A stretch of 64,000 nucleotides of DNA from Candidatus Sumerlaeota bacterium. Its GTDB lineage: Bacteria > Sumerlaeota > Sumerlaeia > SLMS01 > JAHLLQ01. Location: assembly GCA_030156535.1 (NCBI GenBank), contig JASGMJ010000011.1, positions 62,001 to 126,000 of the forward strand. The letters run 5' to 3'. The translations under genes were made by a program, and so were the position numbers. Every line of letters begins with the position of its first letter. The first letter of the stretch is position 1. Under the pieces are notes generated by a model that saw nothing but the letters and a program-made list of their open reading frames with translations, was not told the DNA's origin and did not search any database. Of this stretch, positions 7,929-64,000 are shown piece by piece.

Positions 7929-8909
7929 ATGAAACTCAACCGTATCGGCAACTCTGAAATTCGCGTCTCGGAAATCAGTCTTGGCTGTTGGACCATGGGT
8001 GGCTTGAACTGGGTGAATGGCACCCCCAACGGATGGGCGAACGTTGACGAGGACGAAGTCGTGCGCGCCATCAAGGCCGCCATCGACGCCGGAGTGAATC
8101 ACTTCGACAACGCCGACGTCTATGGCAACGGCAAGGCCGAGCGCATGCTGGCGCGCGCCTTCAGGAAACTCGGGCTCCGCAGCACCGACTACGTCGTCTC
8201 CACGAAAGTCGGGCACTTCCCGGGCACGGCCGAGCACGCCTACGAACCTGCCCACATCCGCCACCAGTGCGAGCAGTCCCTCATCAACCTCCAGCGCGAC
8301 TACATCGACATCTACTACCTTCACCACGGCAACTTCGGCGAGAACGACCGCTATCTCGAAGGCGCGGCGGAGACGCTGGACGCGCTTGTTGCCGAAGGCA
8401 AAATCCGCGTGAAAGGCCAGTCTGCCTACAGCGCCGCCGATTTCGCCAAGACCATTCCCGTCGTGCGTCCCGAAGTTCTGCAAAGCTGGTCGCATGCCAT
8501 GGACCCGCAGTTCATCCTGCCCGATTCACCGGTCGGCAAGCTCATGGCCGAACACAATCTCTCGTTTGTTGCCTTCAGTCCGCTCAATCAGGGGCTGCTG
8601 CTCGACAAGTTTGATCCCGAGAATCCGCCCACTTTCGACGAAGGCGATCATCGCAGAAACGCGAAGAAATTCACCCGCGAATCCCTGCTCGAAGTGCGTG
8701 CGAAAATGGCCCGCATCAAGGAACGTTTTGGCGGCGAAACGGAAACACTTGCGGGCGTGGCGCTGCGCTACGTGCTCGCCCATCCGCACGTTGCCTGCGT
8801 CATTCCCGGATTTCGCAACGAGAAGCAGGTGGCCTGCAACCTCTCGGCCGCAGGCTACGATCTCAGCGCCGAAGACGTTCGCTTCATCGCGGCGGTCTTT
8901 GCGGCCTGA
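7929..8909 (+). CDS. Aldo/keto reductase
   Basis: NADPH-dependent oxidoreductase of the AKR superfamily, 326 aa, a (beta/alpha)8 barrel. The catalytic Asp and Tyr are in FDNADVYGNG, the Lys in STKVG and the His in YYLHHG; the cofactor region near the end reads HPHVACVIPGFRNEKQV. The ATG at 7929 follows an AGAGG site, and the ORF-track start is 69 codons too early. The middle lies close to the YghZ/YhdN type of AKR. It is co-directional with the glycosyltransferase and ends three bases before the convergent mannosidase. Substrate unknown. Confidence 0.88.
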   Translation: MKLNRIGNSEIRVSEISLGCWTMGGLNWVNGTPNGWANVDEDEVVRAIKAAIDAGVNHFDNADVYGNGKAERMLARAFRKLGLRSTDYVVSTKVGHFPGTAEHAYEPAHIRHQCEQSLINLQRDYIDIYYLHHGNFGENDRYLEGAAETLDALVAEGKIRVKGQSAYSAADFAKTIPVVRPEVLQSWSHAMDPQFILPDSPVGKLMAEHNLSFVAFSPLNQGLLLDKFDPENPPTFDEGDHRRNAKKFTRESLLEVRAKMARIKERFGGETETLAGVALRYVLAHPHVACVIPGFRNEKQVACNLSAAGYDLSAEDVRFIAAVFAA

Positions 8910-8911
8910 AC

Positions 8912-48283: not shown

Positions 48284-50005
48284 TCAGTACAGAACCCACG
48301 CCTCGGGAGTGGGAGGCGACGGAGCGCCGAGCACATCGACTTCCTTGAGAATCGTGGCCACATAAGCGGGTGCCGCACCGTCGAGATCATCGTCGGGGTC
48401 CGTGAGGGGATCCCAGCGGTCGACAAAGAAAGCGTCGAGGTTGGAGACGGGATACCAGGCGATCTCCAGGTGGGTCACGCTGCTGGCCACATGAGTGGCT
48501 CCTGATTCGGGCAGCACCCGGACCAGTGAAACGGCCGTCGTGCCGCCACTCGATTGACCATAGGCGCCGGAAGTCAGATCACTCTCCAGCAACAGGCCGT
48601 TCACGTGGACATCGAAGGACTGGAACGCCCGGTTGCCGCTGCTGCCATCGTGCCCTGCGAAGCTGCGGATCTCCGTGATGTCCACGGGTTGCGCGAAGTC
48701 CCACCGGACTCTGAGCGACGGCTGCGCGTAATCGATCAGCACCAGTGTCACGCCACTTGAATCGAAGACGCCGTTTGTGATGGCCGCCAGCGTGCCCACG
48801 CTCGCATCGTGAAATCCACCATCCACGAGCGTCGGAGTCAGCCCGGCAACGAGGTCGTCGTTTCGCACTTGGTAGGGGAGCGAGGCGTCGCTTGTTGCAT
48901 CCCACACCGGCTGAGCTTCGCCCGGACCGGGGGTGAGGTCGGGCGGCTCGGGGCCGTGGTCCGTCAGGTTGAGAAACGCCGCGTACGAGGGCTTTTGGCG
49001 CGTTCGCCCGTCCGTGTACAGGCCCCAGCGGTCCACGTCGCTGAAGTCCTCGTACTGAAACCAGAAGTAGCGCTCGACATAGGGCGGATCACCCGGGTTG
49101 GCGGTGTCCACCAGATCGTCGATGATCTCGAAGGACGAGGTCAGGTAGCTTGCCTGGGCGGACTCGGAGACGAAGTAGCTGCTCCAGCCCATCTCCGTCA
49201 GCCAGACCTTCTTGAATCGGTCGTTGTTTGCGTTCATCACGGACTTGACGTGTGTCTGCAAAACATTCTTCAGACCCGGGTCCGGATTGGAGTAGTTCTC
49301 CGGGTACGGATGAACCGCGACGACATCGAAGGGGTAATGGCCATTCGCGGTGTGGTAGTCCTGCAGGGCCTGCGTGGCATAGAGATCGGAGAGATAATTT
49401 TCGCCGTAGTACAACCCCTTGGGCGAGATGCCGCCGAGCACCACGGTCGCCTCCGGATCGAGTTCCTTGATGGCATCGTGCGCCTGAATCAGCAGCAGGG
49501 CGTAGGGCTGCGGCTCGATGCGCACGTTGAAGTTTGTTTCCTGAATATCCTGCTCGTTCCAGATTTCCCAATGCTTGATCGGATGCTCGCGGTCGCGGAA
49601 GTGCGTGACGAGTTCGCGCACCCGCGCCTCGAACGTATCGCGGAATGTCTGCGTCGCCCAGTCCGAGCGATTCTGCCACTTCACCGATGAGTAGTCGATC
49701 AGTCCCAGAATACCGATGCCGCGTTCCCCCGCACGATCGACAATGTAGTCATACGCTTCGTAGTTCAGGCTGTTGGTGTCGTCCCCGCTGCCGATGAATT
49801 CCATCCGGATCATTGCGGGGTTCAGATAGGCAACATCGTCGGCGACGGTGCGCGTGAAGAGAATCCCGGCGCCGGGGTAGTACATCGGCACGCTGAGACA
49901 CTTGACCTCGGGGCGGTCGAGTTTTGCCTGAGCGGATGCAGCCAGGCCCGTCAGCAGGATCAGGGCGAGCATGGGGGAAAGAACGAGGCGGTGGGCAGGT
50001 TGCAA
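48284..50005 (-). CDS. Secreted clan-A glycoside hydrolase with discoidin-like C-terminal domain
   Basis: 573 aa. The start codon appears to be TTG at 50005, with GGAG seven bases upstream, giving MQPAHRLVLSPMLALILLTGLAASAQA, a signal peptide. The TIM barrel shows acid/base Glu in HWEIWNEQDIQ and nucleophile Glu in KVWLTEMGWSS, the arrangement of GH39/GH5-like enzymes acting on plant-type polysaccharide. A beta-sandwich follows from about residue 360 (FHDASVGTLAAITNGVFDSSG), like an F5/8 or discoidin module. The C terminus ends AWVLY. Exact family and substrate are uncertain. Confidence 0.75.
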   Translation of the reverse strand: MQPAHRLVLSPMLALILLTGLAASAQAKLDRPEVKCLSVPMYYPGAGILFTRTVADDVAYLNPAMIRMEFIGSGDDTNSLNYEAYDYIVDRAGERGIGILGLIDYSSVKWQNRSDWATQTFRDTFEARVRELVTHFRDREHPIKHWEIWNEQDIQETNFNVRIEPQPYALLLIQAHDAIKELDPEATVVLGGISPKGLYYGENYLSDLYATQALQDYHTANGHYPFDVVAVHPYPENYSNPDPGLKNVLQTHVKSVMNANNDRFKKVWLTEMGWSSYFVSESAQASYLTSSFEIIDDLVDTANPGDPPYVERYFWFQYEDFSDVDRWGLYTDGRTRQKPSYAAFLNLTDHGPEPPDLTPGPGEAQPVWDATSDASLPYQVRNDDLVAGLTPTLVDGGFHDASVGTLAAITNGVFDSSGVTLVLIDYAQPSLRVRWDFAQPVDITEIRSFAGHDGSSGNRAFQSFDVHVNGLLLESDLTSGAYGQSSGGTTAVSLVRVLPESGATHVASSVTHLEIAWYPVSNLDAFFVDRWDPLTDPDDDLDGAAPAYVATILKEVDVLGAPSPPTPEAWVLY

Positions 50006-50250
50006 GATAAGGACTCCGCAGGCGATTGCAGGGTTGGCGAACGCAGCGCCAGAAAGGTGATAAGGGCAGCAGTGGAAGCAGCCCTTCTTCTGCCCGCCCT
50101 GTAACGCCCCCGACCCTGTTCTGCAATCGTTTACATGTGCTCCGCTGTCTTTTCTCCACAACCCGGTTGCGGCGCTCCGCCCGCTCGATCAGCATCCACC
50201 CGTGGCCTCGAGCTGCCACGCACAGTCCCCCCTCCCGGAAGGCCCTTCCC
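50006..50250. promoter_or_regulatory. Divergent region upstream of hldD
   Basis: These 245 bases separate the hydrolase start from hldD and must carry both promoters. GGAAGG sits about nine bases before the hldD ATG. No further signal could be named. Confidence 0.35.
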
Positions 50251-51234
50251 ATGATTGTCGTCACCGGCGGCGCAGGCTTCATCGGCAGCGCGCTCGTTCA
50301 TCGCCTGAACCAATTGGGCGCCGAAGACATTCTCATCGTCGATGTCCTGGGCACCGACGACAAATGGCGCAATCTCAACGGCCTCGTCTTCGAGGACTAC
50401 ATGGAGCGCGACGAGTTCCGCGAACTCGTCCTGCGCGGCAACGCCTTCGACGACATCAATGTGGATTGGGTCGCCCATCTCGGCGCGTGCTCCGCCACCA
50501 CCGAGCGCGACGCCGCCTATCTGATGGACAACAACTACGCCTTCAGCCAGGAAATCGCCGAGTGGGCGCTGGCCCGCGAGGCGCGTTTCGTCTACGCCAG
50601 CAGCGCCGCCACCTACGGCGCCGGCGAGCACGGCTACAGCGACGTTGGCCCCATCAGTCAGCTTCGCCCGCTCAACGGCTACGCATTCTCCAAGCAGCTC
50701 TTTGATATCTGGGCCATGCGCACCGGAGCGCTCGATCAATGCGCCGGAATCAAGTACTTCAACGTCTTCGGCCCCAACGAAGCACACAAGGAAGACATGC
50801 GCAGCGTCGTCTGCAAAGGCTTCGAGCAGATTCGCGACACCGGCCGCATCCGCCTCTTCAAATCCGACCGCCCGGAATTTGGGGACGGAGAACAAATGCG
50901 CGACTTCCTCTACGTGCGTGACGCCGTTGCGATGACGATCTTCCTGCTCGAAAACACCACGGCCAATGGACTCTTCAATGCTGGCGGGGGAGTGGCACGC
51001 ACGTGGAATGACCTCGCCCGCGCGATCTTTGCCGCTTTGGACAAGGAACCCGTGATCGAGTACATCGACATGCCCGAGAACCTGCGTGGCAAGTACCAGT
51101 ACCACACCCAGGCCGAAATCGGCAAGATTCGTCTGGCAGGCTATACCGCACCGATCACGACGCTCGAAGACGCCGTGCGCGACTACGTTCAGAACTACCT
51201 CGTTCCCGACCTGCGACTCGGCGAGGCCGGATAG
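50251..51234 (+). CDS. hldD: ADP-L-glycero-D-manno-heptose 6-epimerase
   Basis: Makes the heptose of the lipopolysaccharide inner core, an SDR enzyme binding NADP. The start MIVVTGGAGFIGSALVHRLN is the Rossmann motif. ILIVDVLGTDDKWRNLNGLVFEDYMERDEF matches the HldD pattern, and the catalytic Tyr-Lys pair is in NGYAFSKQLFD. FNVFGPNE and DGEQMRDFLYVRD are also family hallmarks. Length 327 aa from the ATG at 50251. No hldE or waa gene is nearby. Its presence supports a Gram-negative envelope. Confidence 0.93.
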   Translation: MIVVTGGAGFIGSALVHRLNQLGAEDILIVDVLGTDDKWRNLNGLVFEDYMERDEFRELVLRGNAFDDINVDWVAHLGACSATTERDAAYLMDNNYAFSQEIAEWALAREARFVYASSAATYGAGEHGYSDVGPISQLRPLNGYAFSKQLFDIWAMRTGALDQCAGIKYFNVFGPNEAHKEDMRSVVCKGFEQIRDTGRIRLFKSDRPEFGDGEQMRDFLYVRDAVAMTIFLLENTTANGLFNAGGGVARTWNDLARAIFAALDKEPVIEYIDMPENLRGKYQYHTQAEIGKIRLAGYTAPITTLEDAVRDYVQNYLVPDLRLGEAG

Positions 51235-51728
51235 TGGCCGCGCCGGTCCGCCCCACGTCGATCATCATGGTCCTGCCCACACTGGAGGCCATTCCGCCTC
51301 TTGTGCTGCCTGACGGTTTTGCTTTGCGCTGGCACCAACCGGGGGACGAGGCGGCCTGGCTGGCGATCCAGCGCGTTTCCGATTTGATCAACGACTTCCC
51401 GGACGACGCCTTCGCGCGGCACTTCGGCACGGACGCGGTCGAGCACGGCCGCCGCATCGTCTATCTGGAGCACGACGGCCGCCCGATCGGGACGTCGGCG
51501 GCGTGGTGGTCATCGCCTCCGTTCGGCCCCGAAGCCGGGCGCATTCATTGGGTTGCCGTGCTGCCCGGATATCAGGGGCGCGGCCTCGGCAAGGCGCTGC
51601 TCAGTGCCACGCTGCTGCGCCTGCGTACGTTCGGCAACACATCCGCCTACCTCCAGACCGACACGCGCCGCCCCGTTGCCATTGGCCTCTACCAGCGGTT
51701 TGGGTTTGAAATTGTGGGTTCCCCTTGA
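51234..51728 (+). CDS. GNAT-family acetyltransferase
   Basis: 164 aa. The acetyl-CoA loop VAVLPGYQGRGLGKALLSATL and the C-terminal AIGLYQRFGFEIVG are typical GNAT motifs. The GTG at 51234 overlaps the last base of the hldD stop and has GAGG at seven bases; an ATG at 51267 is the alternative. Tight coupling to hldD suggests one transcript, but the substrate cannot be predicted. Confidence 0.82.
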   Translation: MAAPVRPTSIIMVLPTLEAIPPLVLPDGFALRWHQPGDEAAWLAIQRVSDLINDFPDDAFARHFGTDAVEHGRRIVYLEHDGRPIGTSAAWWSSPPFGPEAGRIHWVAVLPGYQGRGLGKALLSATLLRLRTFGNTSAYLQTDTRRPVAIGLYQRFGFEIVGSP

Positions 51729-51862: not shown

Positions 51863-52885
51863 ATGGAAGAGGCGGAACTGGATCTCATTCTCTCCCAACC
51901 AGACCCCGAGACGGTTGCCGCTGTCGGCAGGTTCGAGGGGCCGCTGATAATCCTGGGGGCAGGGGGCAAGATGGGGCCCAGTATGGCGCGCATGGCGCGC
52001 CGGGCAGCCCTCGCCGCCGGCCGGCCGGACTTGGAGGTCATCGCGGTTTCCCGCTTCTCCGATCCCGCCCAGGCAAACCGGTTGCGGGAATGGGGAGTGC
52101 GCGTGGTGGTGGCAGACCTGTCGGACCCGCAGGCCGTGGATTCCCTGCCTGACGCGTCGGATGTGATGTTCCTTGCAGGTCGCAAGTTCGGCGTCAGCGG
52201 AACGGAAGGCGCCACCTGGGTGATGAACACGGTGGTTCCCGGGAACGTGGCCAGACGATTTGAAAAATCCAGAATCGTCGCGTTTTCCACCGGTTGCGTG
52301 TATCCGCTGTGCGAGCGCGGGGAGCCCGGGTGCACGGAGGACTGCCCGCCGCAACCCGTGGGTGAGTACGCTGCTTCCTGCCTTGGACGCGAGCGCCTGT
52401 TCGAACACTACTCAAGGGAGTCGGGCACCAAGGTTCTCTTGCTGCGCCTGAACTACGCCATCGCGCTGCGCTACGGCGTGCTGACGGATCTGGCCCTTCA
52501 GATTCACCGCGGCGGACTGGTGGAGACAGGTGTCCCCGAAGTGAATTTGATCTGGCAGGGCGACGCGAACAACATCGCCCTGCGGGCGCTGGAGCTGGCC
52601 GCCTCGCCTCCTGCCGTGCTGAACGTAACGGGAGTGGAGACGCTTGCGGTGGAGGACCTGGCAAGGCAACTGGCTGAGCGCATGGGCCGCGTTGTTGAGA
52701 TCCAACCGCCGGGGACGACGCGGGGCTATGTGGCGGACGCCGCGCACTGTGCCCGTCTGATGGGGCCGCCCCGGGTTTCGACTTCCCGGATGCTGGACTG
52801 GACCGCGCAGTGGGTGGGTTCCGGAATGCCGACACTCGGCAAGCCAACGAGGTTCGAGGTGACTGATGGCAAGTTCCTTGGCTGA
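51863..52885 (+). CDS. NAD-dependent epimerase/dehydratase (extended SDR)
   Basis: 340 aa from the ATG at 51863, which follows AAGGTG. The Rossmann loop is LIILGAGGKMGPSMARMARR, followed by the strand VIAVSRF and VVVADLSD. The usual YxxxK triad position is best matched by VGEYAASCLGRERLFEHY, where the catalytic residue set looks altered; I could not confirm it. It begins a four-gene run with overlapping stops and starts, so the products probably work on the same compound. Confidence 0.78.
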   Translation: MEEAELDLILSQPDPETVAAVGRFEGPLIILGAGGKMGPSMARMARRAALAAGRPDLEVIAVSRFSDPAQANRLREWGVRVVVADLSDPQAVDSLPDASDVMFLAGRKFGVSGTEGATWVMNTVVPGNVARRFEKSRIVAFSTGCVYPLCERGEPGCTEDCPPQPVGEYAASCLGRERLFEHYSRESGTKVLLLRLNYAIALRYGVLTDLALQIHRGGLVETGVPEVNLIWQGDANNIALRALELAASPPAVLNVTGVETLAVEDLARQLAERMGRVVEIQPPGTTRGYVADAAHCARLMGPPRVSTSRMLDWTAQWVGSGMPTLGKPTRFEVTDGKFLG

Positions 52886-53945
52886 TTCGCACGGCCGGGC
52901 AGCCCTTCTGCACAACGGCCTGATGATTCCGGCGGCGCCCCTGGCACTCACGGCTGAGGGAGCTTTTTCGCCCCGCCACCAACGTGCCCTGATGCGCTAC
53001 TACGCGGCGGCGGGTTGTGGCGGAGTCGCCGTGGGCGTGCACACCACCCAGTTTGCAATCCGCGATGAGAAGGTTGGCCTGCTTCGTCCGGTGCTGGAAG
53101 TGTGTGCCCAGGAGCTTGCGGCATGTGAAGCCCGCCACGGGCGGCCGATTCTTCGCGTGGCTGGCGTCTGCGGCCTGACTCCTCAAGCGGTCGAGGAAGC
53201 CCGATTGGCGGCTTCCCTGGGCTATGACGCCGTGCTCCTGAGTCTGGGGGCATGGCACAGCGCGGAGGAGCCCGACATGCTGGAGCACTGCCGGACCATC
53301 GCCGCCATTCTGCCCCTGATCGGCTTCTATTTGCAGCCTGCGGTGGGAGGGCGGGTGCTCTCCGCCGCCTTCTGGCGCGAGTTCGCCGGCATCGACAACG
53401 TCGTGGCCATCAAGATCGCGCCGTTCAACCGCTACCAGACAATCGACGTGGTACGGGGTGTGGCTCTGGCGGGGGCGCAAGACCGCGTCACTCTTTACAC
53501 GGGCAACGACGACAACATCATTGCCGACATGCTCACGCCGTTTCCTGTACACGTGCCTGGCACCGGGCCCGTGGAGATGCGCATCCGAGGCGGCCTGCTC
53601 GGTCAGTTCAGCGTCCATGCCCGCACGTTTGTGCGTCTCATGGAGACGATTCGTGAATTGTGCCAAGGGGATGTCGTGCCTGCGGAATTGCTGAGGCGAA
53701 ACGTGGAGTTGACCGAAGCAAACGCCGTGCTCTTCGATGCAGCCAACGGTTTCCGTGGCTGTATTCCGGGCATCAACGAGGTCCTGCGGCGACGCGGGTT
53801 GCTGCCGAGCAACCGGTGCCTCGACCCCACAGAGGTTCTCTCGCCTGGACAGGCGGAGGAACTGACCAGGGTTGAACAGGATTATCCCTGGCTGTCCGAC
53901 GCTCCCTTCATCCGGGAGCACCTTCAGGAGTGGCTCGACGAGTGA
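52866..53945 (+). CDS. DHDPS-family (DapA-like) aldolase/dehydratase
   Basis: 359 aa, a TIM barrel with PLP-independent Schiff-base chemistry. The Lys is in VVAIKIAPFNRYQ and the Tyr-bearing loop in IGFYLQPAVGG; GGVAVGVHTTQF is the phosphate-type loop of the family. In catabolic clusters such proteins act on 2-keto-3-deoxy sugar acids, N-acetylneuraminate or related compounds rather than lysine synthesis. It is longer than the 290-aa average, with a C-terminal extension. It overlaps the epimerase gene by 20 bases and the next gene by one. Confidence 0.83.
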   Translation: MASSLADSHGRAALLHNGLMIPAAPLALTAEGAFSPRHQRALMRYYAAAGCGGVAVGVHTTQFAIRDEKVGLLRPVLEVCAQELAACEARHGRPILRVAGVCGLTPQAVEEARLAASLGYDAVLLSLGAWHSAEEPDMLEHCRTIAAILPLIGFYLQPAVGGRVLSAAFWREFAGIDNVVAIKIAPFNRYQTIDVVRGVALAGAQDRVTLYTGNDDNIIADMLTPFPVHVPGTGPVEMRIRGGLLGQFSVHARTFVRLMETIRELCQGDVVPAELLRRNVELTEANAVLFDAANGFRGCIPGINEVLRRRGLLPSNRCLDPTEVLSPGQAEELTRVEQDYPWLSDAPFIREHLQEWLDE

Positions 53946-54973
53946 TGGATGTGCTTATGCCTGACGGAACGGGCGGGGTCTGCCTGCAAGCAGCAGAGCA
54001 ACCGCCGCGCCCTCCGGGATTCCTGCGTGTTCGAACGCTCCGCTCGCTGGTCAGCCCGGGGACGGAGATGTCGATGCTGGCGGGAACGAAGGACGCCGAC
54101 CCGCAGGCGCTCAGGAACGCGGGCTTCCGTCTGGGATACAACGCCTGCGGCTTCGTCGAGGAGTCATGTCCCACGGTCCCCGGGATTGGCGCTGGGGATT
54201 TGGTCGCCTGCTACGGGGGGCCCTACGTGGAACACGCCTCCGTGCTGGCTGTGCCGCACCGCCTGGCGCATCCCGTGCCTGCCGGTCTGGATGGCGCGGA
54301 GGCCTGCTTCATGGGTCTGGGTGCCATCGCGCTTCACGGAATGCGATGCGGACAGGTGGCCCTTGGCGAGTCCGTTCTGGTGATCGGTGCCGGTGTGATC
54401 GGGCAGTTGGTGGCGCAACTTGCCTGCCTGGCAGGATGCCGCGTGCTTGTGACAGATCCGTTGCAGGAACGTCTGGATTTGTTTGCCGCCCACACATGCA
54501 GGGATTGGCCGGTGTCCGTGGCCGGGGCGGAGGAAGTCGCCGCGAAACTGCCCGCCGCCGGGGCGGACGTGGTGCTTGTCGCGGCGGCATCGTCCAGCAG
54601 CGAACCCGTGGCACGCGCATTCGAGTGGGTCGCCCGCAGGGGGCGCATCGTGCTTCTGGGCGCGGTACCCATCGAAGCCTCGCGCTCGCTGGCCTTCGAG
54701 AAGGAAGCCACTCTGGTGGCCACTCTCGCGGCAGGCCCGGGGCGCTACGACCCCGTCTTCGAGCGCGACGGCATTGACTACCCACAGGCCCACGTTCGTT
54801 GGACAGAGCAGCGCAACTGCCGGGAGGTGCTGGCCCTGATCGCCGAAGGACGCCTGCGCGTGCGCCATCTGATCTCGCGCACTGTCCCCGTTGCCGAGGC
54901 TCCTGCCGCCTATTCGGAGATTGCCCGGGGCTCCATCGCCGGCACCGTGCTCCTCCGCTGGGGGGACACGTGA
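53945..54973 (+). CDS. Medium-chain dehydrogenase without zinc ligands
   Basis: 342 aa from the ATG at 53945, overlapping the preceding stop (TGATG). The N-terminal catalytic domain has SLVSPGTEMSMLAG, where zinc-dependent members have the metal-binding Cys; the four-Cys structural zinc loop is also absent. The Rossmann part reads VLVIGAGVIGQLVAQLACLAG. The SPGTE form occurs in BchC-like and related NAD(P)-dependent sugar or polyol dehydrogenases. Its role is probably oxidation of a sugar-derived alcohol, not confirmed. Confidence 0.82.
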   Translation: MDVLMPDGTGGVCLQAAEQPPRPPGFLRVRTLRSLVSPGTEMSMLAGTKDADPQALRNAGFRLGYNACGFVEESCPTVPGIGAGDLVACYGGPYVEHASVLAVPHRLAHPVPAGLDGAEACFMGLGAIALHGMRCGQVALGESVLVIGAGVIGQLVAQLACLAGCRVLVTDPLQERLDLFAAHTCRDWPVSVAGAEEVAAKLPAAGADVVLVAAASSSSEPVARAFEWVARRGRIVLLGAVPIEASRSLAFEKEATLVATLAAGPGRYDPVFERDGIDYPQAHVRWTEQRNCREVLALIAEGRLRVRHLISRTVPVAEAPAAYSEIARGSIAGTVLLRWGDT

Positions 54974-55860
54974 CCAAGGTCGCACTCATCGGGTCGCAGA
55001 GCACCCATGCCTGGAGCTTTGTGCGGCTCTTCAATGTTGAAGGCGTCGTGCCGGGCTTGCGGATCTCGGCGCTGTGCCCCGAATGCCCGGAGCAGGATCG
55101 CGAACTCTGCTCCCTTGGCGCCATCACCCGCACCGTCAACGATCCCGCCGAGTTGACCGATTGCCAGGCGGCGCTCGTGCTGCATCGCGACGCGGCCTTC
55201 CATGCAGACGCCGCGCGGCCATTCCTCCACGCCCGCGTGCCCGTGTTCGTGGACAAGCCACTGACCCCCACTGTTGGGGAAGGAAGCAGGCTCCTTGCTT
55301 TGGCAGCCACCCACGGAGCTCCCATCACCTCCTTCTCCGTGATGACGATGCAGCAGTCTTGGACTCGTCACGTTCTGCCCGCAATCAAGTCACTCGGCCC
55401 ATTGCGCCATCTCCAGATCGATGCCCCCGGAGATTCAAACAGCCCATGGGGTGGAATCCTGTTCTATGGAATCCACGCTGCCGAGTTGCTGCATGCCGCT
55501 GCCCCCGGGATGTGCCATTCCGTGCAGGCATACGTGGAAGGGAACGAGGGCGGTGCCCGCCTGGAGTACGAGGGGGGCACGGGCTCATTCCGGGCCACCG
55601 TCCGTCTCTTTTCCGAGCACGCTCACGGCTATCACGTCGAGGCAGCCGGCTCCGCAGGGGCGTTGGCCACAACGCTGGACATGGACCAGGATCCCTACCT
55701 CACGGCAGCCCTGGAGTTGGGCATGTTCCTCAAGCGCCAGAAACCCGGGCGCCCCGCCGCTGATATCCTTGGAGCCCTGGCACTCATCGAGGCCGCGCGC
55801 AGCAGTTTGGAAAACGGGTGCCGTGTTCCCGTGCACAGTCCCGGCATGCAGGCCGGTTGA
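54970..55860 (+). CDS. Gfo/Idh/MocA-family oxidoreductase
   Basis: 296 aa. The GTG at 54970 overlaps the preceding stop by four bases (GTGA) and begins MTKVALIGSQSTHAWSF. The dinucleotide loop IGSQSTHAW departs from GxGxxG, as in some members of this family. VPVFVDKPLTP is the E/D-K-P motif with the catalytic Lys. The C-terminal half forms the substrate domain (GGILFYGIHAAELLH). It ends the coupled cassette and likely oxidises or reduces a cyclic sugar derivative. Confidence 0.82.
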   Translation: MTKVALIGSQSTHAWSFVRLFNVEGVVPGLRISALCPECPEQDRELCSLGAITRTVNDPAELTDCQAALVLHRDAAFHADAARPFLHARVPVFVDKPLTPTVGEGSRLLALAATHGAPITSFSVMTMQQSWTRHVLPAIKSLGPLRHLQIDAPGDSNSPWGGILFYGIHAAELLHAAAPGMCHSVQAYVEGNEGGARLEYEGGTGSFRATVRLFSEHAHGYHVEAAGSAGALATTLDMDQDPYLTAALELGMFLKRQKPGRPAADILGALALIEAARSSLENGCRVPVHSPGMQAG

Positions 55861-55919
55861 CCCTCGGACTATCATCAGATGCACGGTGCAGGTCGAGCAG
55901 GCTGTCGAGGCCGGCTTCC

Positions 55920-57233
55920 TCAGATCAAATCTTCCACGGCGACGTGGTGGCTGTGGAAGATGTGGCTGTAGACGATGGCTGCGGTTCCAAGCACGGCGAG
56001 ACGCGCGTTGGGCTCGCTGGGGATGATCTCGGCACGCTTGAAGGCGCCCGGCAGCGCGTGGTGCTTGGCGCTGCGCCGGGTGGCCTCCAGATAGAGGTCG
56101 TTTGCCCGGCTGAGACGGCCGCTCAGCACCACGGCTTCCACGCTGTAGAGGTTCAGGATCGTGGCGACAACCCGGCCGACAACCTCGCCGAAACGATCAA
56201 AGACTTCCAGGGCACCTTTGTGCCCGGAGCGGGCCAGCTCGGCCAGCTCCGAGACCCCGCGCACTTTGATGCCAGCCGCCCGCGCCATTCGCTCCACCCC
56301 CCAGCCGCAGGCAACAGTATCCAGACACCCGGTCGACCCACAGTAGCACGGCGCATCCGGTTCGCCCATGGGCATGTGTCCGAACTCCATGTCGCGCCCG
56401 AAGGCACCGCGCACGAGCGTCTTGTTCAGCACGATGCCAACGCCCAGACTGACGCCAAGCTTGATGACGGCGAAGTTCTGGAAGCGGCGCCCGGCGCCGA
56501 ACCATAGTGTGCCCAGCGCCATCAGCTGTGCGTCCGTGTCCACCAGCACCTCGACGTCGAAGTCCTTCTGCAACTCCTCCGCGATGCCCTTTGCGGTGGT
56601 CTCCTTGTCGAACAGGCGGTTGCGGCCACCGCGCTCAAGCACGTTCGGGATGCCCACGCCGATCCCACACAACGGAGGAAAGTCCGCTACGGTTTCCTGC
56701 ACGGTCGTACGGCCAACCTCGGCGGCCCACTCGGCAAAGCGCTGGGGACGGTTGATGGGAGGGGTAGCGAGTTCCAGCTCGCGGATCAGCCCCCCACCCA
56801 GATCCATCAGGCGTCCGACGGTCCGCTCGCGTCCGATGTCGATCCCCATCACCATGGCTGCACGGCGGTTGAGCGAGAGTGGTATGGGCGGGCGCCCCCG
56901 CCGGGACTCCGTCGAGACCGACTCCAGCAGCAGGCCTTCCTCCACCAACTCGTCGACAGTCATGGTGGTGGTGCGCTGGTTGAAACCTGTGGCCTTGGAT
57001 ATCTCAGCCCGGGACAGGCTGCCCTGCTCGCGGATGACGTTCAGGATCGCGTGCTTTCGGATCCTGTGCTTGTCGTCCGAGCGGTCGGCAGGCGTGCTGG
57101 AGTTCAGGATAAGCAGCAAATTCCGCCGGAAGGTCAGCCCCCCATCCAGCGGGATGTCCGAGCCGGGAGACTGCGCGGCAAGTCTCACCCTTCTGTTACG
57201 CCTTGAAGAACCTGCGCCCGACTGTGATCGCAT
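55920..57233 (-). CDS. ROK-family transcriptional repressor
   Basis: About 437 aa. A winged helix (HAILNVIREQGSLSRAEISKATGFNQRTTTMTVDEL) precedes the ROK sugar-kinase-like part: MGIDIGRERTVGRLMDLGG, CGIGVGIPN and the zinc motif CYCGSTGCLDTVACGWG. This is the NagC/XylR architecture, in which a sugar releases the repressor. The start is uncertain; the ATG at 57233 has AAGGCG, and the 57350 start is the longer option. The gene is convergent with the cassette and divergent from the secreted-protein gene, so it probably controls either or both. Confidence 0.86.
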   Translation of the reverse strand: MRSQSGAGSSRRNRRVRLAAQSPGSDIPLDGGLTFRRNLLLILNSSTPADRSDDKHRIRKHAILNVIREQGSLSRAEISKATGFNQRTTTMTVDELVEEGLLLESVSTESRRGRPPIPLSLNRRAAMVMGIDIGRERTVGRLMDLGGGLIRELELATPPINRPQRFAEWAAEVGRTTVQETVADFPPLCGIGVGIPNVLERGGRNRLFDKETTAKGIAEELQKDFDVEVLVDTDAQLMALGTLWFGAGRRFQNFAVIKLGVSLGVGIVLNKTLVRGAFGRDMEFGHMPMGEPDAPCYCGSTGCLDTVACGWGVERMARAAGIKVRGVSELAELARSGHKGALEVFDRFGEVVGRVVATILNLYSVEAVVLSGRLSRANDLYLEATRRSAKHHALPGAFKRAEIIPSEPNARLAVLGTAAIVYSHIFHSHHVAVEDLI

Positions 57234-57732
57234 CGTAAAGAACGCCTTGCCGTCTTTCGCTGTCGGCTCACACCAAGCCGCGAGCCCCAGTGAACTCTTC
57301 CACCATGGGCTCTGCCCCGAAACATCCACAATGTTTGGCCTCCGGGACAATCAAAAGCTTTCGCTTTATGAATAAGACTACTCCTATTGCACGGTTTTGC
57401 GTTTGCCCTTGCGAAAGGACGACCGAGGCGTAGGGAACAACTGCTCTTGAAAAACAGCCTGTTTGACTTGTTTGGGCCAGAAAGCCGGGACTGCCAACTG
57501 GCTTGCGGCCCTCCTTTTCTTCTTTTGGCTATTATTAATGCTACTATTAGTGTTTGTGGCTTGACTTAGCATCAGTGGATCGGATATCTCTTCTCATAAG
57601 AACCTCATTTTCTCAGATTGAAAGGGGCGGAGCGGTCTTGGGGGCCTGACCAGCCATCAGAGCACCAATGGAACTGCCGTGCCGTCTGGCCACAGGAGGC
57701 GCGGATCCCAACACAGATCAAGGAGTACAGCC
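57234..57732. promoter_or_regulatory. AT-rich divergent region
   Basis: About 500 bases between the ROK gene and the secreted-protein gene, clearly richer in A and T than the rest. A possible promoter reads TTGACT (57561-57566) with GATATC about 16 bases on. AAGGAG lies seven bases before the GTG start of the next gene. ORFs in the track here are short and unsupported. Confidence 0.45.
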
Positions 57733-58770
57733 GTGTTCAAAAACTACTGCCTTGTTGCTGCGGTGGCCGCCCTTGCCGCCACCGCCTCCGCCCAGTGGAC
57801 CTACGAGAAGCACATTGATCTGAGCGGACAGATCAACGGAAGCCTCCTGTCCATCGCTTCGGACAGCAATGGCGACCTCTACCTCACGACCTACTTCGGA
57901 ACCGGCGACCGGCCGGTCTACAAGGTGTCCGACCCTCTTGGCGCTACTCCCGTCCTCAGCGACTTCGCCACACCTGGATACACCTCGTCCAACGGCTCCG
58001 ACCTGTCCGTGGACTCCAGCGACAACGTCTGGCTCTGCCACGACACCAACAGCGAAGCCACTTCCTTCATCAAGAAAATGACGCCCGCCGGTACCCTTGA
58101 CGCCGCCTTCGCGAGCGCAGGCACGGTCAGCCCCGTCGTCTTCAACGTCGCCGGAACTCCGACGAACCGCCGCCCCCGCTCCATCACCTACGTTGAAGGT
58201 GGCAAACTTCTGGTCTTCAGTTGGGGCAACCCGATGCTCCTCCAGGTGCTCGATGCCTCCACCGGCGCTCCCATTGGCGATGCGATCGACGTCGGTGTCG
58301 GCACAGGTATCAGCGACTCCATGCATGACATGGTCTATGACGCGTCAACGAACGCCATCACCGGCAGCCTCCGCGGGAACCTCTTCCAGATCACCAGTTC
58401 CAACGCCTCCGCAACCCTTGCCAATCTCCCGGACTACTCAATCTTCACCAAGCTGGCTGGCGACGACTTCCCGGCAGGCAACTCGAACTCCGGCGGCACT
58501 TGGGATCCCACGGAGAACCTGTACGCCTTCACGAGCTCCAAGACCGTTCCCGGCTCCGTCACCGTTGTGGATCTCGATGACACCGGCAACCAGACGGTCA
58601 TCGGTCCGGCCGTGTCGGAGAGTGGCCATCTTGGCAACGCCGGCGATTGCACCTTCTTCCGCAGCGGCGGGGAGCTCTACCTCGCCATCAACTGCGAGAC
58701 GTTGGGCGATATCGCCATCTACAGCTTCAACGCTCAGGCCTCGGTTACTGACTGGGTTCTGTATCAGTAA
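57733..58770 (+). CDS. Secreted beta-propeller-like protein
   Basis: 345 aa from a GTG with a near-perfect AAGGAG site. MFKNYCLVAAVAALAATASAQ is a clear signal peptide. The mature part has repeated strands such as LLSIASDSNGDLYLTTY and SDLSVDSSDNVWLCHD, reminiscent of NHL or SMP-30-like propellers that bind or act on sugars, but no catalytic motif is evident. The C terminus is TDWVLYQ. It lies next to a ROK repressor and a polysaccharide-lyase set. Function unknown. Confidence 0.7.
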   Translation: MFKNYCLVAAVAALAATASAQWTYEKHIDLSGQINGSLLSIASDSNGDLYLTTYFGTGDRPVYKVSDPLGATPVLSDFATPGYTSSNGSDLSVDSSDNVWLCHDTNSEATSFIKKMTPAGTLDAAFASAGTVSPVVFNVAGTPTNRRPRSITYVEGGKLLVFSWGNPMLLQVLDASTGAPIGDAIDVGVGTGISDSMHDMVYDASTNAITGSLRGNLFQITSSNASATLANLPDYSIFTKLAGDDFPAGNSNSGGTWDPTENLYAFTSSKTVPGSVTVVDLDDTGNQTVIGPAVSESGHLGNAGDCTFFRSGGELYLAINCETLGDIAIYSFNAQASVTDWVLYQ

Positions 58771-58824: not shown

Positions 58825-59181
58825 ATGAATACTCGCCCACAACACAGGCACTCGCACGCGCTCACATCCGAAGTTCCCGTTTCAGGAACTTGCGCTCACT
58901 GTGCCGTGCGATTCGAGTTGGATGAAGGGCAGACGCAGGAAGCTGCTTTCTGCCCTTTCCCGTCTACACCCCGGATGCCTTTGTTGCATTGCTTCGGAAG
59001 GTCGTCATGTCCATGGCCGAACCGGTGGCCCGTGCTTCTTCGGCCGCGAAGGCGAGCAGGTGCCCTTCCACTGCGATCGCCAGTGAACGCGCAGCCGACG
59101 CGCGGTCTCCACGACGCACCAGGTCCACGAAGTGCCGCGCCACTCCCGTGTCGCCGCCAGAGTGCCCTCCGGCTTCAATGA
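58825..59181 (+). CDS. Possible small ORF with a CxxC motif
   Basis: About 118 codons beginning MNTRPQHRHS behind GGAGG. The first half includes CAHCAVRFELDEG, a possible metal-binding knuckle. The second half overlaps the opposite-strand oxidoreductase by over 200 bases and looks like shadow sequence. It may be a short leader or a chance ORF; support is weak. Confidence 0.2.
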   Translation: MNTRPQHRHSHALTSEVPVSGTCAHCAVRFELDEGQTQEAAFCPFPSTPRMPLLHCFGRSSCPWPNRWPVLLRPRRRAGALPLRSPVNAQPTRGLHDAPGPRSAAPLPCRRQSALRLQ

Positions 59182-60253
59182 AAGGACGGTGCACTTCCAC
59201 GCGGTACTCCTCCTCCGGGATGCCTGCCGTAAAGCGCCGCACCGTGATCTCGTTGCGCTCCAGGTGCCCGGCCAGCTCGCCCTCCGATCCCGCGATGCGG
59301 ATCGTGCGATAGCAGTCGTGGGAGTTGGCGCGCACCGTGAAGTCCAGCACGGCGCCGCCACGGAACCGCGCCGAGACGCTCTGGTGGTCCGCCACGTCAT
59401 TGTCGCAGTGGTACACGCAGCGGCCATACGGGCCCTGCTCCAGCGCCCGGCGGCGCGCTTCGAGCGACGAGTCGGTGCTGATCACGCTGACGGGCCAGCC
59501 CGTGCGTGCGCCCAGGTACATGCGCGGCGCGAAGAACGCGCAGGTTTCCTCTGCCGGGCACCCGTCCAGACAACGCGCGGGCGCGCCCGCCGGTGCATTC
59601 TCCTCGCGGAAGTGGATTCGCCCCCCCAGCGAAACGACGCTCTCCACCTCGTCGTCCGCCAGCCACGCCGCGATGTCCATGTCGTGGCAGCACTTCGTCA
59701 GGATCAACGGCCCGCTCTCATCCTGCCGCCGCCAGTTGCCGCGCACGTAGCTGTGCGAGTAGTGCCAGTAGCCGACGCTCTCCGTCATCGACAACGAGCG
59801 AATCGCGCCGATGCGCCCCTGCCCGAGCAGTTCCTTCACGCGCATGTAGAAGGGCGTGTAGCGCAGCGGGTGGCAGATCTGCAGGATGCGACCCGTGGCC
59901 TCGGCGGTGGCCTGGAGTTGGAGGACCTTCTCCGGCGACTCGGCCATCGGCTTTTCGAGGAAGACATCGTACCCCAATTCCATCGCGCGGGTGCCGGGTT
60001 CGACATGGTCGCGGTCGAGCGTCTCGATGAAGCACAGCGGTGCCAGACGCCCCTGCGCCAACAGCTCCGTCCCCGTGGCGAAGCATCGCTCCGGCGGGAT
60101 GCCATGCCAGGCGGCGAAACGTTCGCGCCGGGCGGCGTCGGGTTCGGCCACGGCCGTAAACTTCAGGTCCTGCGGATGGGCGAGCGCGAACGCCCCCACG
60201 CCGAAAGTGCCTCTCTCGCCCGCCCCGATCAGGACGGCTTCCAATGGTGCCAT
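58964..60253 (-). CDS. Gfo/Idh/MocA-family oxidoreductase
   Basis: 429 aa. The Rossmann motif is VLIGAGERGTFGVGAFA and the catalytic motif YDVFLEKPMAESP; the substrate-side His-Asp pair is in TKCCHDMDIAAWL. A Cys-rich stretch (CLDGCPAEETCAFF) in the middle is found in several carbohydrate-acting members. It is the third gene of a minus-strand set after the symporter and lyase, so it probably oxidises the imported product. The start as given begins at the family's natural N terminus. Confidence 0.85.
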   Translation of the reverse strand: MAPLEAVLIGAGERGTFGVGAFALAHPQDLKFTAVAEPDAARRERFAAWHGIPPERCFATGTELLAQGRLAPLCFIETLDRDHVEPGTRAMELGYDVFLEKPMAESPEKVLQLQATAEATGRILQICHPLRYTPFYMRVKELLGQGRIGAIRSLSMTESVGYWHYSHSYVRGNWRRQDESGPLILTKCCHDMDIAAWLADDEVESVVSLGGRIHFREENAPAGAPARCLDGCPAEETCAFFAPRMYLGARTGWPVSVISTDSSLEARRRALEQGPYGRCVYHCDNDVADHQSVSARFRGGAVLDFTVRANSHDCYRTIRIAGSEGELAGHLERNEITVRRFTAGIPEEEYRVEVHRPFIEAGGHSGGDTGVARHFVDLVRRGDRASAARSLAIAVEGHLLAFAAEEARATGSAMDMTTFRSNATKASGV

Positions 60254-60286: not shown

Positions 60287-62518
60287 CTAGTTCTTTTGTC
60301 CCGTCGCCCACCACTTGGCTTCGAGCTGCGGCTTCCACTCGTCTACCGGTGCGTTGGTGCGAAGTTCCAAGTGGTACTGCTCAGGGTACTGGGACTCCTT
60401 GCCGGCGGGGCGGTTGGGCGGAACCGGGAAGGTGTCTGTCAGGATTGCAGTGAATGGGATGTCCGAGATGAAACGTGCCTCAAGCATGTGGTCCCGGCCG
60501 CGGATTTTCAATGCCCCAACACCCGAATCGTAGATGATCGGATGGGCGCTGTGCAGCAGGAAGGAGATGACGCCCGGTTCCTTGAGACGGATCGTGTCCG
60601 CAAGGCGGAGAGTGCGGTTCTCTTCATCGTAGTCGATTGAACGCACGAAGGTCTCGACACGGCCATCGTACAGGAGGGGCTCGGAGGCGTCGCCGGTCAC
60701 CGACAGGGAGCGGCCCTCTGTCTGGAAGTCGGTGATGTGGGCGTTGAGGCCGGCGACCTGGACAAGTTGCCCGACGCCATCCACGAGGATCGTGTTATGC
60801 GCGGCGCTCTGGCGAGAGTACTCCTTGTTGTGAGGCGTCAGGTAGCCATCATAGTATCCGGCATCCCATAGGAGCTTGTCGCTTCCGGCGGTCAGGACGA
60901 AACTGTTCTGGTCCGCGTGGAGGTGTCCGAATCCCCGCCCTGCGAACGGCCCGGCGCGGAAGGCAAAGATCGTCTGGCGCCGGACGTCGAAGGGGTCGGA
61001 GTTGCTGACCACCCACCCCATGTCCTTGTGGAACACGGCAAAGGGCAGGCCCGTCTCGGTTTCCGGCGGGGGAGGATCGTCGTCGCCCCACAGCAGGGAG
61101 TACTGAAGGTCGCGCGTGTACGTCAGCTTCACATCGATCGCGTTGACGTATTGCCAGAGCACCGGGTCGTCAAAGCGCGAGGCGAGGCGCATCATCACCA
61201 CCTTGTCAAACCCGTTGGGGGGATGCTGCTTGCTGTTCGAGAAGGGAACGTGGGCGCCGACTGGTGGGTGTGCCATCACCTTGAACCTTCCCGTGGCGCG
61301 CAGCCACGGGTGCTCCAGCAGATCAATCCCCGTGGCGACGTTCAGGGCGTCGGTGAATTGAAAGACGAAGTACAGCATGTAGGACCAATAGTCGTTCCCC
61401 TCGTGCCAGCCCCCCTGCGAGTCGCCGCGGGGCAGGAACACTCCGCGGTACATCTGGGTGGCGAAGCAGGCCCACTCCTCGGCTCGCGGATCGTCCGGGC
61501 CCAGAGCCAGGGCTCCCAGCCCCAGCGCCGTGTTGCAAAACCACGGGTGATTGTTGTCGGGGTCGTTCATTGCGCCCGCACTGCTGGTCTTTGAGACAAA
61601 GGGGTTCAGGAACGCGTACATGTCTTCGCACCGCGCCGCGATGGCAAGGCGCACCTTTGCGCGTTCCTCCTCAGTCATCCTGTCGGCGAGGTGTCCATAC
61701 GCCAGCGAGAGGGATCGCAGCACCGCGTGGGCGGAATGGTCATTCTCCCACACACCCGTGGCTCCAGTCGGTGCCCAATCCGCCAGGATCAGGGCGAGAC
61801 GCTGTGCCTCGCTGGCAAATGCTTCCTCGCCCGTGATCTCCCAGGCCAGTATCTGCTCGGCAATCCGATCCTGTACGCTGGACGCCAGTGTGTTGTTTTT
61901 GCTCCAGACAGAGTAGTCCCACACCCCATCGGGATAACGTTCCGGCTCAGTGGGGGACTGCGCTCCTTGAAACGCCTGCTTGCGGGCGGCCTCGAGGAGC
62001 TGCTCGCGTGTGGGGAGCATGGCACCCTGCGCGCCCGCGATGGCCTCGATTTGCTGTGGGCTCCAACCGACGGCGGCGCCCGGCCGCAGTGCCAGGGCGT
62101 TCAGGTCGACATTCAGGCCGTCGGGTTCCCGGTCGATGCTGAAGGCTGAGGTGGCGGGGGAGGAGAGGACGTCGCCCTCGGAATCGAGAGCTTCGATGGT
62201 AAGTGAATACTGGCCCGGCGCCAGTCCCTCGGCGGGCATCGCGAAGTTCCAGGTCGTACGGTGGGTCCACTCAAACTCCTCGCCCAACACAGTGATCGAG
62301 TAGAGCGTGGCACCGGGAAGATGCTGCCAATGCAGGAAGGGCGGATTGGAAACGGAAACCGCCTCGGGCAGGATCACGGTCAGCGGCTCGGGGGAGAAGC
62401 TGGCCCAGCACGCCGGAAACTCATCACAATCCGACTCCGGCGTGACTCCTGGCAAACTTCGAACAAGTAGCATCAGGGCGGTCAGTAGAATCAGGCTTAT
62501 TCCTGGTTGGGGGCGCAC
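60287..62518 (-). CDS. Heparinase II/III-type polysaccharide lyase, secreted
   Basis: About 743 aa. The GTG at 62518 has GGAG eight bases upstream and overlaps the symporter gene by 22 bases. MRPQPGISLILLTALMLLVRSLPG is the signal peptide. A fibronectin-like domain (residues ~50-130) precedes an alpha/alpha-toroid (HSAHAVLRSLSLAYGHLADRM) and the heparinase II/III C-terminal sandwich with GHLHADQNSFVL and DAGYYDGY. Such enzymes cleave uronate-containing chains such as heparin-like, alginate or chondroitin-type polymers by beta-elimination. The exact polymer cannot be said. Confidence 0.83.
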   Translation of the reverse strand: MRPQPGISLILLTALMLLVRSLPGVTPESDCDEFPACWASFSPEPLTVILPEAVSVSNPPFLHWQHLPGATLYSITVLGEEFEWTHRTTWNFAMPAEGLAPGQYSLTIEALDSEGDVLSSPATSAFSIDREPDGLNVDLNALALRPGAAVGWSPQQIEAIAGAQGAMLPTREQLLEAARKQAFQGAQSPTEPERYPDGVWDYSVWSKNNTLASSVQDRIAEQILAWEITGEEAFASEAQRLALILADWAPTGATGVWENDHSAHAVLRSLSLAYGHLADRMTEEERAKVRLAIAARCEDMYAFLNPFVSKTSSAGAMNDPDNNHPWFCNTALGLGALALGPDDPRAEEWACFATQMYRGVFLPRGDSQGGWHEGNDYWSYMLYFVFQFTDALNVATGIDLLEHPWLRATGRFKVMAHPPVGAHVPFSNSKQHPPNGFDKVVMMRLASRFDDPVLWQYVNAIDVKLTYTRDLQYSLLWGDDDPPPPETETGLPFAVFHKDMGWVVSNSDPFDVRRQTIFAFRAGPFAGRGFGHLHADQNSFVLTAGSDKLLWDAGYYDGYLTPHNKEYSRQSAAHNTILVDGVGQLVQVAGLNAHITDFQTEGRSLSVTGDASEPLLYDGRVETFVRSIDYDEENRTLRLADTIRLKEPGVISFLLHSAHPIIYDSGVGALKIRGRDHMLEARFISDIPFTAILTDTFPVPPNRPAGKESQYPEQYHLELRTNAPVDEWKPQLEAKWWATGQKN

Positions 62519-64000
62519 GGGGGCAGCTCCTTTCCGTCTTGATGATGAGCATCGGCAGCCTGGGCTTGGGGGCAATCGCTCCCGCCGGATGCCCGCCGGG
62601 AAGCGAACACCATCACGCAGCCGAAGGCGAAGACACAAAGCGACACAATGGCGATCTGGAAGCGTCCAGCCAACGGATTCGGCACAGCAATCAGCAGGAA
62701 CAGAAACCCACCGATCACGCAGGCAAGCCGCCCGATCAATCGCAGCTGCGCGGAATCGTTGCAGGAGCCCACCTCGGCCTCGAAGTCCACTGGGGTTCGC
62801 ATCTTCTCGTGGAACTCCGCCACCTTTCGCTGATACTCAGGCGGCGTGCGTCCCCAGAAGGGCATGGTGGCAAGGTACCCGGCGGTGCTGGTGCCCGTGA
62901 CCGAGAATACCGTGGCGGCGTAGCCGAACTCCATTGTGTAAGCCAGCAGCGAGGCTGCCAGACCCGCGCATACCGAGGCCACGGCCGACCATGGTGGAGT
63001 GCGCCGGATGAACAAGACCAGAAACAGCGGAACCACCATTGGTGTTCCCAGCAGGCTGCCGAACAGCAGCATCGAATCGAACAGCGCGCCGCCCGAACGT
63101 CTCGACAGATGCACCGCCATCGCAACGATGGCCGCTCCCACCACCACTGTCGCCACGCGGCCGGCAACGAACAACTCCCGCTCCGACGCCTTGGGCCTCA
63201 GGAAAGGCTTGTACACGTCCTGGGTCATGATTCCCGCGAACTGATTGAAGATCGTGCTCAGCGAGCTCATCGTGGCGGCGAACATCGCCACCACAATCAT
63301 CCCGGTCATTCCCGCAGGCAGCAAACGCATCGCCACCACGGCGTAGGCAGCTTCCGCCGGCTTGGTCAGCGGTTGAGCATCCACGAACTCGGAGAAGCGC
63401 AAACGCGCGACCATCGGGGGAATGATCCACAGCACCGAGCCCAGCAGCATCAGCACGGCCGCCAACGCCGAAGCACGCGAGGCCTCGCGCCCATCCTTGC
63501 AGGAAAAGAACTTCACGGAGGAGCCGATCGAGTTGTAGCTGATCACCACAAACACGAGGAATGCAGAAGCCCAGACCGGCGTGTAGGTGGCCTCGGGGCC
63601 GCGGTCGAACAATTGCAGCATTTCCGGGTGGCCCTGCGCACCGATCTCCGAGATCAAGCCGTCGATTCCCCCCACTGCCCCCAGACTCAGCACCGCCACC
63701 AGCACCGTCATCGGCACCAGGATCAGCGCCTGGAGAAAATCCGTCGCCATCACCGCCCAAAGCCCGCCCACCACCGAATACACGAGAACCACGACGCCCA
63801 CGCCCACGATCAGCATCGTCTGGTCGAGACCAAACACCGCCGAGGTGAACAGGGCAACGCCCCACAGGGTCAGGCTTGCCATCAGAATGCCCGGAAGAAT
63901 CCCGACGTAGATGTAGAACTGCTGCGTCCACGTGCCGAACCGCGCCCGGACGACTTCCGGATACGTCGTCGCCCTCAACTGACGGAACCACCGCGCCGTC
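62497..64000 (-). CDS. Sodium/solute symporter (SSS family), start outside window
   Basis: Inner-membrane permease of the SSF group with at least ten membrane helices (VGILPGILMASLTLWGVALF, MLIVGVGVVVLVYSVVGGLWAVM, GMTGMIVVAMFAATMSSLSTIFN). The reading frame continues past the TTG at 63978 to the window end (ARWFRQLRATTYPE), so the N terminus is missing. In such loci the symporter often takes up the monomer or dimer released by the lyase. The MATDFLQALI stretch is family-typical. The 3' end overlaps the lyase gene. Confidence 0.88.
   Translation of the reverse strand, partial: TARWFRQLRATTYPEVVRARFGTWTQQFYIYVGILPGILMASLTLWGVALFTSAVFGLDQTMLIVGVGVVVLVYSVVGGLWAVMATDFLQALILVPMTVLVAVLSLGAVGGIDGLISEIGAQGHPEMLQLFDRGPEATYTPVWASAFLVFVVISYNSIGSSVKFFSCKDGREASRASALAAVLMLLGSVLWIIPPMVARLRFSEFVDAQPLTKPAEAAYAVVAMRLLPAGMTGMIVVAMFAATMSSLSTIFNQFAGIMTQDVYKPFLRPKASERELFVAGRVATVVVGAAIVAMAVHLSRRSGGALFDSMLLFGSLLGTPMVVPLFLVLFIRRTPPWSAVASVCAGLAASLLAYTMEFGYAATVFSVTGTSTAGYLATMPFWGRTPPEYQRKVAEFHEKMRTPVDFEAEVGSCNDSAQLRLIGRLACVIGGFLFLLIAVPNPLAGRFQIAIVSLCVFAFGCVMVFASRRASGGSDCPQAQAADAHHQDGKELPPCAPNQE

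Follow-up and report, generated by a model that had tools for sequence, protein, structure and literature searches.

The four-gene cassette at the centre of this analysis was interpreted, with a probability of about one half, as the cytoplasmic portion of a locus of eight genes that serves the use of an acidic (uronate-containing) glycan. The four genes by themselves are not the natural unit: a core of two genes, encoding an atypical SDR and a DHDPS-superfamily protein, is universal, and the full set comprises eight genes. The dehydrogenase and the short Gfo/Idh protein are more variable partners. This interpretation was adopted because the core pair stays together in all loci collected, the same eight families occur in the window and in a genome of the same taxonomic order, and a PL15-like lyase accompanies the pair within the phylum. 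It was further favoured because the catalytic positions of this lyase are kept, transporters and regulators recur at the loci, fused MDR-Gfo proteins adjoin HepII/III lyases in other bacteria, and Lys183 of the DHDPS protein is invariant. Counted against it were the occurrence of the pair without a nearby lyase in most other phyla, the dispersal of the genes in one closed genome, and the loss of the SDR lysine and of two of the three DHDPS hallmarks.

According to this interpretation, the lyase would be secreted and would cleave glycan oligomers by beta-elimination, as its fold and retained catalytic residues suggest, and an SSS symporter would, judging from its family, import the products. 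NAD(P)-dependent redox reactions at sugar carbons may be carried out by the zinc-less MDR dehydrogenase and two Gfo/Idh proteins. The atypical SDR and the DHDPS protein would act together in a late two-protein stage, in which the latter might form a Schiff base via Lys183 and then split or dehydrate a keto sugar acid. A ROK protein would presumably repress the locus.

The window, i.e. the whole analysed stretch of 64,000 nucleotides, is part of a 4.3-Mb assembly (G000) that is 94% complete, so that the absence of a single gene is weak evidence. Comparisons within the phylum were made with 40 genomes, one of which is closed (G035, 3.3 Mb). The four open reading frames lie on the forward strand and overlap by 20, 1 and 4 bases, as the sequence-only reading had reported. 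They encode an atypical SDR annotated as 'NAD-dependent epimerase' and lacking the YxxxK lysine (P0001, 51863..52885; Pfam Epimerase, 5e-12), a DHDPS-superfamily protein (P0002, 52866..53945; DHDPS, 7e-07), a zinc-less MDR dehydrogenase with an ATG start (P0003, 53945..54973; ADH_zinc_N, 5e-09) and a short Gfo/Idh protein with a GTG start and a degenerate glycine loop (P0004, 54970..55860; GFO_IDH_MocA, 5e-08). In an NCBIfam search, all four remained far below any equivalog cut-off. The GC content by codon position was similar and of coding type across the four genes (about 0.70/0.50/0.76). The frames are unlikely to have arisen by chance, since each has full-length or near-full-length homologues elsewhere. 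The overlaps had been taken as a sign that the genes work as one unit. Their exact lengths are not conserved in relatives, and the 20-base overlap was rejected as a conserved coupling signal because the spacing differs; adjacency alone was retained.

Each of the 28 loci examined, which come from at least six phyla, encodes both the atypical SDR and the DHDPS protein. These loci were gathered by searching with P0002, and the count therefore states how often P0001 accompanies P0002. They were found in the window's phylum, Acidobacteriota, Planctomycetota, Bacillota, Actinomycetota and Alphaproteobacteria. The two genes are mostly direct neighbours; at some loci (Tistrella, Sulfitobacter, Nitratireductor) a GNAT or TetR gene lies between them, and their order is reversed in Rhodococcus and Glaciihabitans. 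Among the 40 genomes of the phylum, P0002 was detected in 15; all of these also have P0001, which is additionally present in G011 (Fisher test, 4e-10, uncorrected for relatedness; such values overstate independence because genomes of one phylum are kin). Distances within one family are correlated with those within the other (r 0.70, 0 of 5000 permutations), a result that shared ancestry alone could also give. The claim that the genes act as one unit was supported by this pairing and by the joint presence of all four families at single loci: in the window, in G023 and, with wider spacing, on a Mesobacillus plasmid. The unit is not the four genes, since P0003 and the short Gfo/Idh protein are missing from most loci with the pair.

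Several observations were made beside the pair. The P0001 homologue of G011 (G011:C3:20392-21384) contains one in-frame TGA and is possibly a decaying copy; no P0002 was found in that genome. Three haloarchaeal plasmids carry an atypical SDR (45-47% identical; L052:11962-13008, L053:11962-13008 and L054:11968-13008) near Gfo/Idh, DegT or sulfatase genes and without any match to a DHDPS partner. A two-domain GNAT acetyltransferase family recurs beside the SDR or between the SDR and the DHDPS protein in Planctomycetota and Alphaproteobacteria, and also near the SDR of a haloarchaeon (L033:6819-7646, L035:8005-8829, L040:8091-8951, L041 about 8090-8930, L053:6268-7128). Membership of the window's GNAT gene (51234-51728) in the double-GNAT partner family known from Aquisphaera, Tistrella and Sulfitobacter was rejected, as only a short local similarity was found. 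In Bacillota, the surroundings of the pair repeatedly encode large secreted proteins of the beta-propeller, Kelch or carbohydrate-binding type (L017:3-2699, L038:3770-5746, L051:10471-13752), none of which was assigned to a lyase family.

Both active sites of the pair are altered. In an alignment of 30 P0001 sequences, the tyrosine of YxxxK was present in all, the lysine at Y+4 in none, and cysteine occupied this position in 25. The Rossmann glycine loop is present (LGxGGKxG, with G32, G35 and G38 invariant), and K36 and K108 are invariant. The predicted model (pLDDT 78) was closest to TerB and GalE-like SDRs. The family thus shares the Rossmann fold of the extended SDR epimerases and of TerB, its closest solved structure, but differs in the lost lysine and in having K36 and K108 as invariant residues instead. 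The predicted P0002 model (pLDDT 78.5) had a (beta/alpha)8 fold, and its best PDB matches were all DHDPS, NAL or HOGA. Both models were built on four sequences each and were used for fold only. In 28 P0002 sequences, K183 was invariant and aligned with the Schiff-base lysine (AIK motif). Fold and lysine are common to the DHDPS/NAL superfamily, which includes DapA, NanA, KDG aldolase and L-2-keto-3-deoxyarabonate dehydratase. P0002 departs from this superfamily: it is about 60 residues longer, it always occurs with the SDR partner, and it lacks two hallmarks. The position of Tyr133 of E. coli DapA is taken by A/L/M or others without a conserved tyrosine, and the carboxylate-binding loop GxTGE is replaced by GVHTTQF, in which H59, T61, Q62 and F63 are invariant. 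Ordinary aldolase chemistry should not be assumed, because P0001 lacks the YxxxK lysine and P0002 two of the three active-site hallmarks. For the same reason, the proposed conversion of a sugar acid through a keto intermediate followed by cleavage was not supported in the form given.

PDB sequence searches for a named pathway returned only remote matches to DHDPS/NAL and to SDR/TerB/GalE proteins. An SDR and a DHDPS-family enzyme also act on sugar acids in the uronate dehydrogenase/keto-deoxy-galactarate dehydratase pathway. The enzymes of that pathway were not matched by P0001 or P0002 in PDB searches at 0.001, and P0001 differs by the missing SDR lysine. Literature searches on the SDR-DHDPS pair found no published description, in agreement with the sequence-only reading, which could not match the route to a known named pathway.

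In most other phyla, the pair occurs without a nearby lyase; its neighbours there include carbohydrate ABC transporters, 2-hydroxyacid dehydrogenases, TIM-barrel isomerases or an enolase-superfamily protein. Because of these varied neighbours and the missing lyase, the pair itself probably acts on a substrate that several routes share, and the lyase cannot define this substrate. A role in the catabolism of sugars or sugar acids, as had been suggested, agrees with the repeated presence of a symporter or of carbohydrate ABC transporters, with the regulators and with the PL15-like lyase. Tentatively, and with a probability clearly below that of the glycan locus, the atypical SDR and the DHDPS protein may form one two-component enzyme with a reaction new to both superfamilies. 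It would catalyse a late step shared by many sugar and sugar-acid pathways across bacteria; fed by the lyase in this phylum, it would constitute a new acidic-glycan catabolic pathway. With its wide distribution, its annotation as no more than 'NAD-dependent epimerase' and 'dihydrodipicolinate synthase family protein', and two altered active sites, the pair probably marks an unassigned metabolic step. Confirmation would put right a misannotation now made routinely and might add a carbon route from acidic glycans. Cultured carriers of the pair (Paenibacillus, Mesobacillus, Streptomyces and Sulfitobacter) make testing possible.

The best clue to the substrate is provided by the lyase, a second Gfo/Idh protein and the symporter on the reverse strand, which the sequence-only reading had missed. 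Downstream of the cassette, this strand encodes a predicted DNA-binding regulator of the ROK family (NagC-like, with ROK and HTH domains; 55920..57257), a full-length Gfo/Idh/MocA oxidoreductase (GFO2, 58964..60253), the secreted PL15-like lyase (60287..62518; DUF4962 and Hepar_II_III_C) and a putative SSS-family Na+/solute symporter, which was named from sequence (62497..64000, running past the window end). The lyase frame is open to 62638, and the GTG at 62518 precedes a signal-peptide-like stretch. Between the regulator and GFO2, the forward strand encodes a secreted protein of a family without a name (57679..58770; cluster c8, no Pfam match), relatives of which flank the lyase in G025, an association only.

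In G023, a member of the same order, the symporter, epimerase, DHDPS protein, dehydrogenase, PL15-like lyase, Gfo/Idh protein, short Gfo/Idh protein and ROK protein were found as one run with one contig break. Contig C160 carries the symporter gene, P0001, P0002, P0003 and the start of the lyase gene; contig C207 carries the rest of the lyase gene, GFO2, P0004 and the convergent ROK gene. The contig ends have 19 bases in common and the lyase match continues across them, and we infer that the contigs join. GFO2 of the window is 60% identical to its orthologue between the lyase and P0004 in G023, and the regulator is 54% identical to the orthologue at the cluster end. In the window, the same eight genes occupy two strands (51863-57257 and 58964 to past 64000) in a different order. 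In six genomes (G000, G014, G015, G016, G023 and G025), P0003 is the next gene after P0002, and in four of these the lyase gene lies directly after P0003. The same succession was seen in G026 and G039 on separate contigs, whose joining was rejected as no end overlap was found. The symporter (cluster c4) adjoins the pair in G015, G023, G025 and G039, and a symporter or carbohydrate ABC transporters and regulators recur at loci of the pair. It is very unlikely that the four genes were brought together by chance through local operon shuffling and that only the pair has a joint function. Chance shuffling would agree with the gene order differing between the window and G023, with the positions of the MDR and lyase genes far from the pair in G030, and with the closed genome G035, in which the pair, P0003 and the lyase gene are far apart. 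It is contradicted by the gathering of all eight families both in G023 and in the window, by orthologues of the lyase, the MDR and P0004 that track the pair across the phylum, and by the presence of all four families in one Mesobacillus locus.

The lyase of the window matched the oligo-alginate lyase Atu3025 at 1e-28, and its His, Tyr and His residues aligned with His311, Tyr365 and His531. Catalytic roles have been described for His311 and Tyr365 of Atu3025 and for the third His in the heparinase subfamily PL15_2 (PMC11921355). Domain layout and catalytic positions are those of the PL15 lyases (Atu3025, the heparinase BIexoHep and VBAly15A), but identity is low and the window lyase has a signal-peptide-like N-terminus. 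Strong orthologues were present in 10 of the 15 pair-bearing genomes and in none of the 25 others (Fisher test, 3.5e-6, 40 related genomes). The corresponding numbers for P0003 were 11/15 and 1/25.

P0003 was confirmed by sequence as a zinc-less dehydrogenase: SPGTE replaces the catalytic-Cys motif, and GHE is missing. In the P0004 family, the GxGxxG dinucleotide loop is absent and GxxxxxH stands in its place. The EKP-type lysine is kept (DKP in all nine sequences), as is YGxH (YGGH in one). On the Mesobacillus plasmid, P0001, P0002 and a distant relative of P0004 are consecutive, and a P0003 homologue follows after about 5 kb, beyond the record start. Fusions of a P0003-like domain with Gfo/Idh immediately precede HepII/III-type lyases in three other phyla (Sphingobium, Parabacteroides and Streptomyces KN37); this was not the case in Thalassospira and Streptomyces HUAS 15-9. 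In the zbdP-hepP operon of P. aeruginosa, a dehydrogenase-Gfo fusion lies beside a heparinase, and the role of ZbdP was left open (PMC5732420). These systems and the 'bi-domain-containing oxidoreductase' clusters with HepII/III lyases resemble the window in placing MDR and Gfo/Idh proteins beside a heparinase-type lyase. They differ in having one fused MDR-Gfo protein and a lyase of another subfamily, and the SDR-DHDPS pair was absent among the neighbouring genes listed. Three families of the window are thereby linked to acidic polysaccharides independently of the pair.

The same clusters bear on the possibility that the locus serves to remodel an acidic polysaccharide on the cell's own surface instead of feeding on a foreign glycan. 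In Sphingobium and Parabacteroides, the fusion and the HepII/III lyase have WecB, WecC and glycosyltransferases as neighbours; in Streptomyces KN37 they lie with glycosyltransferases and a nucleotide-sugar dehydrogenase, and loss of HepP altered pellicle and biofilm formation in P. aeruginosa (PMC5732420). Remodelling is nevertheless rather unlikely for the window locus, which combines an SSS importer, a ROK regulator and a DHDPS protein, has no glycosyltransferase among its eight genes, and encodes a PL15/DUF4962-like lyase rather than the Hepar_II_III_N type of those clusters.

For the use of a foreign acidic glycan, the fate of the monomers was considered. In the window genome, KduI (PF04962) gave no match, GH88 was absent, and NanE was represented only by a sub-threshold match to PF04131. 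A GH88 route was rejected, and the usual route for pectin or glycosaminoglycan monomers appears incomplete because KduI, GH88 and a convincing NanE are missing from this 94% complete assembly. A KDPG aldolase (PF01081) is encoded at G000:C3:85032-85622, and an alginate-type route through Eda is possible in this genome. In an ordinary uronate route, the MDR or a Gfo/Idh protein would reduce the lyase product, and P0002 might then substitute for 2-keto-3-deoxygluconate aldolase. The missing KduI and GH88 would suit such a substitution, as would the 9 of 15 pair-bearing genomes in which no KDPG aldolase was seen. We consider it unlikely, as the enzyme is present in the window genome itself and is not significantly rarer in pair-bearing genomes than in others (a replacement of KDPG aldolase by P0002 was rejected on co-occurrence), the tyrosine and the GxTGE loop are missing from P0002, and the obligatory SDR partner is left unexplained.

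Also improbable is an amino-sugar or nonulosonate route. Here the DHDPS protein would act like N-acetylneuraminate lyase on an unusual sialic-like acid prepared by the SDR and Gfo/Idh proteins, releasing pyruvate and an N-acetylhexosamine. In favour of this route, the P0002 profile and model fit NAL and DHDPS structures equally well, the Mesobacillus locus contains NanE and a ROK kinase, and a GH20 protein is encoded right after the pair at a Eubacteriales locus. This has to be set against the absence of a convincing NanE from the window genome, the lack in P0002 of the tyrosine and GxTGE loop used by NAL, and the absence of amino-sugar genes from most loci.

Near the locus, a large secreted protein (48284-50161, reverse strand) appeared by eye to consist of a glycoside-hydrolase-type (beta/alpha) barrel and, after it, a discoidin-like domain. 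It is one of three secreted-looking proteins within about 20 kb that share a WVLY end (WVLY* twice, WVLYQ* once); the others are encoded at 57679-58770 (forward strand) and, beyond the window, at G000:C14:130792-130806. The tails are not a genome-wide sorting signal, since only one more WVLY* match was found elsewhere in the genome. They are encoded by the same 11 bases, TGGGTTCTGTA, for which the chance expectation in the window is 0.01.
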